From an uncultured Anaerolineales bacterium (GTDB lineage: Bacteria > Chloroflexota > Anaerolineae > Anaerolineales > Villigracilaceae), in assembly GCA_903873975.1 (NCBI GenBank), contig CAIQQN010000104.1, forward strand, positions 1 through 37,085: a stretch of 37,085 nucleotides of DNA. Direction: 5' to 3'. The position numbers and the translations under genes were made by a program. The stretch's first letter is position 1, and each line of letters starts with the position of its first letter. The notes under the pieces are model-generated. The model was not told where the DNA came from. It did not search any database and saw only the letters and a list, made by a program, of their open reading frames with translations. Positions 23,748-30,963 of the stretch are shown piece by piece.

Positions 23748-24488
23748 ATGAGTGATAAGAACCTGTTTAATATCATCCTCTTGATCGCCAGACCAGCCGC
23801 TGGCAAGAGCGAAATCATCGATTATCTCAAAAAGATGTCACCTGAGGAACGTCGACAGCGCTTTCATGTGGGCGGGATCGACGAGATCGACGACTTCCCG
23901 ATGATCTGGGCCTGGTTTGAGGAGGACGACCTGCTGGACAAAATGGGTCATCCCCGGCTGCATACCGATTCAGAAGGATATTTCATCCAGATCTACCTCT
24001 GGAACCTTTTAATCGAACGGATCGGATTGGAATACCAGAAAAAACAGCGCGATCTCCCACACGATGCCGAGGCGTTAACCACATTCATCGAGTTCTCCCG
24101 CGGTAGGGAGCATGGCGGCTATCGCTCGGCATTTTCGCATCTTTCCAGGCAAATCCTCGAAAAAACGGCCTTGCTGTACGTTGATGTCACCTGGGAAGAA
24201 TCCCTGCGAAAGAATAGAAAGCGGTTCAACCCCGAGAGACCCGACAGCATCCTGGAACATTCCTTGTCGGATGCGAAATTGGAACGTCTATATAAAGAAA
24301 CCGATTGGAGGGAGGTCAGCAAAGTTGATCCCAACTACCTGGCGGTCGAAGGGATTCAGGTTCCCTATGTGGTGTTTGACAATTCCGACGATGTGACGAC
24401 CCAACGCGGGGATTCTTTAGGGATACGGCTTGAACAGGCATTGAAGCACCTCTGGACGCTTTACGAGAACCGGTCATTGGGAAAATAA
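23748..24488 (+). CDS. Uncharacterised P-loop NTPase/kinase-like protein
   Basis: The 246-residue protein carries a Walker A-like loop near its start, ARPAAGKSEI (residues 14-23), in which the first glycine is replaced by alanine. GGIDEIDDFP follows at about residue 42, then an aromatic-acidic region (IWAWFEEDDLLDKMG). A hydrophobic strand LLYVDVTW comes before the Arg/Lys-rich RKNRKRFNPERPDS, which looks like the lid and arginine residues of nucleotide kinases. I do not recognise the family; a small-molecule or nucleoside kinase is the most natural guess. A TAAGGAG ribosome site lies before the ATG. It is transcribed alone after a terminator, and the LexA-box promoter follows its end by 55 bases. 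Confidence 0.75.
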   Translation: MSDKNLFNIILLIARPAAGKSEIIDYLKKMSPEERRQRFHVGGIDEIDDFPMIWAWFEEDDLLDKMGHPRLHTDSEGYFIQIYLWNLLIERIGLEYQKKQRDLPHDAEALTTFIEFSRGREHGGYRSAFSHLSRQILEKTALLYVDVTWEESLRKNRKRFNPERPDSILEHSLSDAKLERLYKETDWREVSKVDPNYLAVEGIQVPYVVFDNSDDVTTQRGDSLGIRLEQALKHLWTLYENRSLGK

Positions 24489-24542
24489 CTATTATCACTT
24501 CTTTTCGATGTTGCAGGCGCAGGTGAGAATCGCTTTTTCCCC

Positions 24543-24571
24543 TTGACTAAACAGAACAAACGTTCTATAAT
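24543..24571 (+). promoter_or_regulatory. Sigma-70-type promoter with a LexA/DinR-type box in its spacer
   Basis: TTGACT (24543-24548) and TATAAT (24566-24571) are 17 bases apart. The spacer ends in GAACAAACGTTC (24554-24565), a perfect GAAC-N4-GTTC palindrome that fits the Bacillus-type SOS operator including its R-N-R-Y centre. LexA bound there would block RNA polymerase. No open reading frame follows; transcription would begin near 24578 and meet a terminator within 40 bases. Confidence 0.75.
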
Positions 24572-24580
24572 AATCTTGGT

Positions 24581-24616
24581 TACGGCAATGCCTGAACCTT
24601 GCCGTACTACCTTTTT
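24581..24616 (+). terminator. Intrinsic terminator just downstream of the LexA-box promoter
   Basis: TACGGCAA (24581-24588) pairs perfectly with TTGCCGTA (24599-24606) around a ten-base loop; CTACC and five T follow (24612-24616). It could end the P-loop gene transcript, or terminate an RNA of about 40 bases made from the promoter at 24543. Confidence 0.8.
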
Positions 24617-24735
24617 CTATTCAACAATGACTATTCATCATTTAATATAAACTATTACATTTTGTCCTTCATGTTCCATGGTGCCCTTTGAGTTTAATCC
24701 TAGTTCCAATCATCAATCCTCAATCCCCGGCATCC

Positions 24736-24801
24736 TCCCGGTGCTCTTCCGGCGGAACATCCCGGTGCTCTTCCGGCGGAACGTCCCGGTGCTCGTCCGG
24801 G
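24736..24801. repeat. 24-bp tandem repeat, 2.7 copies
   Basis: Units beginning TCCCGGTGCTCTTCCGGCGG start at 24736, 24760 and 24784; the first two differ at a single base and the third is partial and diverged. Because 24 is a multiple of three, it makes a false protein repeat in the shadow frame. Confidence 0.92.
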
Positions 24802-24885
24802 AGAGAAAGAGAGGGTTGTTTGTTTTGCTGAAAAACAACCTCGGGCACGATCTTTATGTCCACGAATGAACTTTATAATGAAGGA

Positions 24886-25152
24886 GCTCTCGAAGAGAAT
24901 TTGAGCGCTGGGAGGGGTTGTTTGTTCCTCCATTGTTCCTCGAAACAAACAACTAGCCGAGGCGGTCTGAGCGGAGCGAAGCGGAGACTAAGATATCCCG
25001 CATCATCCTGTGCTCCTCCGGGGCATCATGCCTACATGGATCCACTCTTGGAGTCGCATGGGAATTGTTCCTCAATTGTTCCTCAATTGATCCTCAGAAA
25101 CAATTCCAGTCCTCATCTGGCAGGTCTACTTATCATGAAGAAGTTCGAGAGC
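24886..25152. repeat. Nested inverted and tandem repeats, possible decayed mobile element or structured RNA
   Basis: GCTCTCGAA (24886-24894) and TTCGAGAGC (25144-25152) bound the stretch as inverted copies. Inside lie the hairpin GTTGTTTGTT/AACAAACAAC (24917-24926/24944-24953), an imperfect palindrome around 24966-24989 (GTCTGAGCGGAGCGAAGCG), and three 11-bp tandem units ATTGTTCCTCA (25064-25096). The last are themselves enclosed by GGAATTGTT/AACAATTCC (25061-25069/25099-25107). The motif TTGTTCCTC recurs across the block. No transposase is present. Confidence 0.7.
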
Positions 25153-25352
25153 CAAATAGGAGGTCGGAATTGTCCCTCTTTTTTTCCCCCTGGAACAGAA
25201 TATTGTCCCCGGAGGGGACGAATCGCCTTTGAAAGCGGTAGGGATTTTTGCTGGTCTTGGGATAAAATAGGATGAGAAATTCATGGCATAACTCCACTAT
25301 CCAGCGATAATGCTTGCACCCTGATCCCTGATTACCTGATCCCTTTTCCCTT

Positions 25353-26141
25353 ATGCCTGTGATCACCCTTACCACTGATTTCGGCCTCAAAGACGGCTTT
25401 GTTGGCACGCTGAAAGGTGTCATCTGGAGCATTTACCCCCTCGCCCAGATTGCCGATATCAGCCACGAAATTTCCCCACAGAACGTGCTCGAAGGCGCCT
25501 TCGCCCTCTGGCGAGCTTATCCGTTCTTCCCGTCCGGAACCATCCACGTGGCGGTCGTTGATCCCGGCGTGGGCACCTCCCGCCGCCCGCTTGCGGCCCG
25601 CCTGGGGGGGCATACCTTCGTCGGCCCGGATAACGGTCTTTTCACGCCCATGTTCGAGGATGCCGAAAAGGACTGTCGGCCGATCGAAATCGTCCACCTG
25701 ACGAACAGGAAATACTTCCTGCCTGATGTGAGCCGCACCTTCCACGGGCGTGATATCTTCGCTCCGGTCGCTGCCCACCTCGCCAACGGCGTCCCACTGG
25801 CGGACTTGGGACCGGCCATCTCCGACCCGCTGCGGCTGTCCATGCCGAAATCCGAAAAGACGGCGGACGGCTGGCGCCTCCATATCACCGTGATAGACAT
25901 CTTCGGCAATTGCACCACTGACCTGCCGGCTGCAGCCCTGACCGAACGCGAGCGGGTCACCTTCCGTCTTGGAGGACAGGAAGTGCGCGGTCTGGTAGAT
26001 TCTTACGGCCATAAAAAGCCCGGTGAGTTGATTGCTCTGGTGGATAGCGAAAACTACGTCGAGATTGCCATCGTCAATGGTAGCGCGGCAAAAGTATTAG
26101 GTGCGCGGGTTGGCGATGTGGTGGAGGTGGTAACGACTTAA
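25353..26141 (+). CDS. SAM hydroxide adenosyltransferase (DUF62 family, SAM hydrolase)
   Basis: Members of this family cleave S-adenosylmethionine with water to adenosine and methionine; related enzymes use chloride or fluoride. The 262-residue protein opens with the family motif ITLTTDFGLKDGFVG. It has VVDPGVGTSRRPLAAR, giving the Asp and Arg of the water-activating side-chain triad, and TFHGRDIFAPVAA, giving the His, so a hydrolase is expected and not a halogenase. The C-terminal domain contains IDIFGNCTTDL, as in the adenine-binding part. The ATG at 25353 has no clear ribosome site. It is followed after 20 bases by the ECF transporter genes on the same strand, suggesting a shared function. 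The biological role of such SAM hydrolysis is not known. Confidence 0.92.
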   Translation: MPVITLTTDFGLKDGFVGTLKGVIWSIYPLAQIADISHEISPQNVLEGAFALWRAYPFFPSGTIHVAVVDPGVGTSRRPLAARLGGHTFVGPDNGLFTPMFEDAEKDCRPIEIVHLTNRKYFLPDVSRTFHGRDIFAPVAAHLANGVPLADLGPAISDPLRLSMPKSEKTADGWRLHITVIDIFGNCTTDLPAAALTERERVTFRLGGQEVRGLVDSYGHKKPGELIALVDSENYVEIAIVNGSAAKVLGARVGDVVEVVTT

Positions 26142-30935: not shown

Positions 30936-30963
30936 TTGACAACATGGAGCAGTTTGGTATAAT
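30936..30963 (+). promoter_or_regulatory. Promoter of the copper-homeostasis operon
   Basis: A consensus TTGACA (30936-30941) and TATAAT (30958-30963) lie 16 bases apart, upstream of csoR. The start site would be near 30970, just before the G/C palindrome at 30977. Confidence 0.85.

Follow-up and report, generated by a model that had tools for sequence, protein, structure and literature searches.

A Probable Solo Copy of a Phage-Type Promoter and Leader Terminator with a Predicted LexA Operator in an Anaerolineae Genome

Introduction

The closest described counterparts of the locus reported here are the pR' promoter of phage lambda, whose picture of promoter-proximal termination includes the 6S RNA, and promoter P1 of GIL01, a tectivirus of Bacillus thuringiensis. 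Late control in the lambdoid phages operates through Q antitermination and qut (PMC6266700); the promoter runs into a terminator before the late genes, and the extent of read-through sets the output. Promoter P1 of GIL01 is directly controlled by the LexA of the host, including at a noncanonical half-site (PMC4551915). Among SOS-linked small-RNA loci, symE/SymR and tisB/istR combine a small RNA with nearby LexA control (PMC1891008).

In this report, we analyze a promoter that leads directly into a hairpin within a 37,085-nt stretch of DNA (the whole of which is termed the window) from an Anaerolineae-type metagenome-assembled genome (MAG) of 3.56 Mb in 330 contigs (90.2% complete, 5.37% contamination). 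The arrangement resembles that of lambdoid pR' but differs in that the promoter bears a LexA-type operator, that leaders of the family can have a competing third arm, and that solo chromosomal copies exist. As for GIL01 P1, direct action of host LexA on a phage promoter, including a noncanonical half-site, is predicted here; the boxes of P1, however, are downstream of the start site, whereas the box described here is within the spacer and is followed by a terminator. The symE/SymR and tisB/istR RNAs differ in being antisense to a toxin gene, and no toxin ORF or antisense partner was seen at the present locus. We consider it probable (roughly 70%) that the segment from 24543 to 24616 represents a phage-type control module in a solo chromosomal copy, in which a LexA-operated sigma-70 promoter is followed by a leader terminator.

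Results

Promoter, Operator, and Leader Hairpin. The features of the locus are collected in Table 1. The −35 and −10 boxes were found by a promoter scan to match 11 of the 12 consensus bases with a spacer of 17 nt. The perfect palindrome GAACAAACGTTC (24554–24565) lies within this spacer and can be extended to AGAACAAACGTTCT. Taken alone, the palindrome is not significant, as 50 of 100 shuffled windows contained at least one and approximately 0.7 would be expected per window. A palindrome within a promoter of at least 10 of 12 consensus bases was obtained in 0 of 400 dinucleotide shuffles, and the TTGACT-17-TATAAT promoter with a GAAC-N4-GTTC palindrome in its spacer, as described in the first-pass annotation, was thus confirmed.

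The RNA from 24576 to 24616 is predicted to fold with an energy of −13 kcal/mol (z = −4.2), and none of the shuffled sequences folded equally well. Both elements of an intrinsic terminator, a G+C-rich stem and a U tract directly after it, are found between 24578 and 24616. Because the stem, closed by the pairing of 24578 with 24611, runs directly into TTTTT, the assignment as a terminator is considered fair, in agreement with the earlier placement of an intrinsic terminator shortly after the −10 box. The hairpin is absent from the list returned by the scanner, probably on account of a loop longer than 8 nt. It was also correct that no gene directly follows: none was identified in the 736 nt past the T5 tail, and the first is that for a SAM hydroxide adenosyltransferase (SAM_HAT).

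Table 1. Coordinates of the Features in the Window
Feature	Position	Strand	Basis or remark
Upstream gene (the P-loop gene of the first-pass annotation)	23748..24488	+	No Pfam or PHROG match
Pyrimidine-rich stretch immediately 5' of the −35 box, common to other copies	24533..24542	+	Flank comparison
−35 box, TTGACT	24543..24548	+	Sequence and promoter scan
Putative LexA-type operator in the promoter spacer, AGAACAAACGTTCT	24553..24566	+	Box class shared with the lexA and recA promoters
−10 box, TATAAT	24566..24571	+	Sequence and promoter scan
Leader hairpin, beginning near the predicted start site (~24578)	24578..24611	+	Fold, −13 kcal/mol, z −4.2
T5 tail immediately 3' of the stem, where a ~39-nt transcript is predicted to end	24612..24616	+	Sequence and fold; T-rich tails in the module family
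Structured repeat unit (~150 nt), 3' of solo copies and on their strand	24802..24958	+	Sequence comparison and fold
SAM_HAT, first downstream gene	25353..26141	+	Pfam PF01887/PF20257

LexA and the SOS Promoters of the Host. The first-pass annotation had proposed to look in the genome for a LexA homologue and for further boxes of this type. Both are present. One clear, full LexA is encoded at C233:19209, with DNA-binding and S24 peptidase domains (PF01726, 61.8 bits, and PF00717, respectively), and boxes were found at lexA, at recA, and at many copies of the module. The lexA promoter, TTGACATAGAACGGGTGTTCGTATTATAAT, has the layout TTGACA-TAGAACGGGTGTTCGTAT-TATAAT with the box GAACGGGTGTTC, and the recA promoter, TTGACGTATCGAACATCTGTGCTATACT, has the layout TTGACG-TATCGAACATCTGTGC-TATACT with the box GAACATCTGTGC. 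These GAAC-N4-GTTC-type boxes match that of the window in class and in place within the promoter. The box at 24553–24566 is best read as a LexA operator, because the genome has a LexA and the lexA and recA genes carry the same class of box in the same position; LexA would be expected to bind there. Unlike the module in the window, the host lexA and recA promoters lead straight into their genes without a terminator, and promoters of the same design in relatives also run directly into genes. A search of the literature on LexA boxes of the Chloroflexi found nothing specific.

A separate observation was made in contig C164, where a minus-strand promoter at contig position 2164 (locus L182) belongs to a gene for a membrane protein of 243 residues with no Pfam match. 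The membrane protein and an SOS-type double-box promoter are kept in several species (orthologous loci L229, L231, L255, and L258). The gene that follows resembles a lytic transglycosylase, and the two constitute a candidate new SOS gene pair.

A Multicopy Family. Using the segment 24480–24640 as the query, a DNA search returned four more copies in the genome. The genome census was made with pattern searches, and TTGAC-N6-GNAC-N4-GTTCTATAAT, with up to two mismatches allowed, gave 33 copies, compared with 0 for the reversed-pattern control. Up to 19 copies per genome were found by pattern search in members of the same genus. The operator-free query TTGAC-N18-TATAAT listed 39 sites, of which 20 have a GNAC-N4-GTT-type operator by our own count; since half of the listed sites carry it, the operator is not an artifact of having been searched for. 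About thirty copies are scattered through the genome, mostly without virus genes, and the copy in the window has the same promoter, operator, and leader hairpin as the family.

The left half-site is variable. GCAC replaces GAAC in many copies, GTAC or GAAA also occur among the sister copies, and GAAC, GTAC, or GCAC is found at the same place before a conserved membrane-protein gene in different species, which suggests, short of proof, that a variant left half-site is tolerated. In the sister copies with GCAC, GTAC, or GAAA, either LexA tolerates the variant or repression has been lost.

Copies from the same genome are alike in the promoter and in approximately 10 bases upstream, and the remaining upstream flanks are mostly unrelated; pairwise homology to the copy in the window begins at about −10. 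The hairpin arms vary in sequence between copies with their complementarity kept, and T-rich tails follow. The stem was above the 95th percentile of shuffles in 32 of 83 copies, a set that includes some ordinary gene promoters, and the eight bases past the stem in those 32 copies hold 3.8 T versus 2.1 T in shuffles. Arms pair with their own opposite arm at 0.97 and with the opposite arms of other copies at 0.48; the former figure is high because the strong set was selected for it, and the informative one is the cross-copy pairing.

These comparisons bear on other explanations. The first-pass annotation had suggested that the terminator only ends the upstream P-loop gene, in which case the promoter would be a chance or relic match, and the hairpin is indeed 90 nt past the stop codon of that gene. 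This is very unlikely, because many unrelated loci not preceded by that gene have the same promoter with a hairpin after it, and the shuffles never yielded such a pair of promoter and box. The suggestion that the promoter is a relic of a lost SOS gene fared no better: with 33 copies in the genome, a unique promoter of one lost gene was rejected, and the members of the family that do bear genes mostly drive those for phage packaging rather than an SOS gene of the host.

Alternatively, the hairpin RNA of ~40 nt could be a host-owned SOS small RNA that acts in trans, with the many copies supplying the dose. Promoter and hairpin are kept in many copies though the flanks differ, an equivalent copy is present in the related genome G005, and other bacteria have small RNAs tied to SOS-regulated loci (PMC1891008). 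However, the low cross-copy pairing of the arms argues against a common seed, no Rfam family was found at this place, in the window or at the element loci, and we regard this explanation as improbable.

A neutral, nonautonomous repeat, whose copies have no function and owe their dispersal to transposition or phage traffic, has a somewhat better but still small chance of being correct. Dispersed intergenic copies sit within other genome-wide repeats, and the element is present in one species and absent from another at SAM_HAT. Against neutrality, conservation is focused on the −35 box, the operator, the −10 box, and the complementarity of the hairpin and does not extend along the whole repeat. 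No flanking terminal inverted repeats were found in 24480–25360, where the only hairpins found are internal to the repeat field. For C9/G005, C301/G005, and C168/G009, another copy of the module is ahead of the same gene in this genome and in the relative, a comparison biased to retained copies, the sites of the relatives having been found by pattern.

Phage Packaging Genes beside Sister Copies. Within the same genome, at least six copies of the module are ahead of terminase genes, in contigs C61, C87, C89, C143, C200, and C42. The genes after the module were assigned by PHROGs to the large and small terminase subunits, the portal, and the protease/capsid protein, and in C42, a prophage remnant, TerL, portal, and protease/capsid follow in order. 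Terminase or portal genes are also 3' of the module in the relatives G004, G005, G007, G009, and G053. In four IMG/VR contigs (L288, L299, L307, and L354), the module is 0.7–0.9 kb before TerL, and the longer of these contigs continue with genes for portal and capsid/protease that are relatives of the C42 genes. More divergent forms are found in the IMG/VR contigs L373, L378/L379, and L385. The module belongs to one branch of these phages; it was found at up to three mismatches within 1.5 kb upstream of a TerL relative in only 6 of the 47 viral contigs with enough upstream sequence.

A third arm was identified in 15 of the copies listed, and the majority of these are linked to phage genes. Two partners are available to the 5' arm, namely the near arm, in a terminator mostly followed by a U-rich tail, and a near-perfect distal arm, and the two pairings are predicted to compete because they share bases. 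Such a leader has, as judged from its predicted folds, the anatomy of an attenuated late promoter. From its sequence and gene context, the module is probably the promoter of a phage packaging operon with a promoter-proximal terminator, like lambda pR'-tR', to which a LexA operator has been added.

The copy in the window, in contrast to those 15, has no third arm. No packaging gene was matched in the region extending 1.5 kb upstream and 5 kb downstream of it, nor was any obvious phage gene found among the listed ORFs. It is a solo copy and not a working late promoter.

At L190 (C143), L175 (C87), and L278 (C61), genes for the large and small terminase subunits adjoin the module and repeat units. 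No portal or capsid genes were seen there, and these loci are possible terminase-only islands.

Neighbors of the Solo Copy. The closest relatives of the upstream gene, among named genomes, are in Anaerolineae/Anaerolineales MAGs. In the flanks fetched for its orthologs in relatives, the module is absent, and it was rejected as a fixed syntenic partner of this gene.

Many solo copies are accompanied by the ~150-nt repeat unit, which in the relatives examined is always downstream and on the same strand. A total of 20 sequences of the unit were recovered from this genome and its relatives, at times two or three in a row. The consensus fold has 17 pairs, seven of which show compensatory changes, and this covariation gives modest support to the structure. 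The viral loci yielded no match to the unit, which was rejected as part of the phage module. At the gathering score, Rfam returned no match in the window, and at a permissive threshold the only matches in eight loci were a cspA thermoregulator and tRNA-Sec, both elsewhere; a known RNA family was rejected for the module and the structured unit.

The comparison with related genomes that had been proposed earlier showed the arrangement kept before SAM_HAT in G005 and missing in G004. The G005 ortholog of SAM_HAT (75% identical) is preceded in the same order by the promoter TTGACAAAAAAGAACCAATGTTCTAAAAT, a weaker hairpin, and the unit. The G004 protein (84% identical) has no promoter, hairpin, or unit upstream; G004 differs on the far side as well, and a clean empty site was not obtained at this locus.

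The module could be a damage-responsive attenuator leader for the unit and SAM_HAT, with read-through rather than the short RNA as its output. The identical order of promoter, hairpin, unit, and SAM_HAT in G000 and G005 would fit such a leader, as would the orientation of every unit match near module copies in relatives (downstream, same strand), the same-strand gene faced by most solo copies in our reading of the maps, and the competing third arm of the phage-type leaders. The absence of that arm from the window copy counts against it, the element is not needed for the gene in G004, and the leader would measure ~775 nt. We consider this explanation unlikely, though worth retaining.

Two other features of the window were recorded. 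The tract cctgatccctgattacctgatccc at 25322–25352, before SAM_HAT, recurs in C70 and C80, where it immediately precedes the module. A perfect 12/12 promoter at 30936–30963 (TTGACA-16-TATAAT with TG before the −10 box) precedes the gene for a CsoR-type metal repressor (31004) and that for a heavy-metal P-type ATPase (31571).

Discussion

We favor a phage-type control module, present in the window as a solo copy. In the proposed mechanism, LexA would occlude the consensus sigma-70 promoter and keep the module silent, and DNA damage with cleavage of LexA would open the promoter. RNA polymerase would then start at ~24578 and mostly stop at ~24616, with the release of an RNA of ~40 nt. Downstream transcription would occur only upon read-through of the terminator, and this read-through would be the output, whether regulated or leaky. 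The module heads the packaging operon (terS, terL, portal, and protease/capsid) in the phages and prophage remnants of this lineage, and the mechanism of the phage copies would resemble lambda pR'-tR' combined with direct LexA control in the style of GIL01.

The damage-induced ~40-nt RNA or regulated read-through put forward in the first-pass annotation is a fair prediction because the pairing of promoter and terminator recurs; the RNA itself is so far a predicted species. The copy in the window presumably derives from the phage module and, if active, may now be a leaky leader for the structured unit and perhaps for SAM_HAT. There is good support for the identity of the module, but not for a function of the solo copies.

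If the favored reading is correct, the LexA of the host would directly control the packaging operon of a group of tailed phages, and the leader terminator would constitute a second checkpoint, in bacteria known here from MAGs only. It is also conceivable, but rather unlikely, that a LexA-gated phage promoter with competing arms has been recruited into many solo units (each a promoter, a terminator hairpin, and the ~150-nt structured repeat, which matched no Rfam family), and that these constitute a damage-responsive noncoding network that outnumbers the ordinary SOS promoters of the same strength. Since half of the listed consensus-strength sites carry the operator, the DNA-damage transcriptome of a cultured relative should show mainly noncoding loci.
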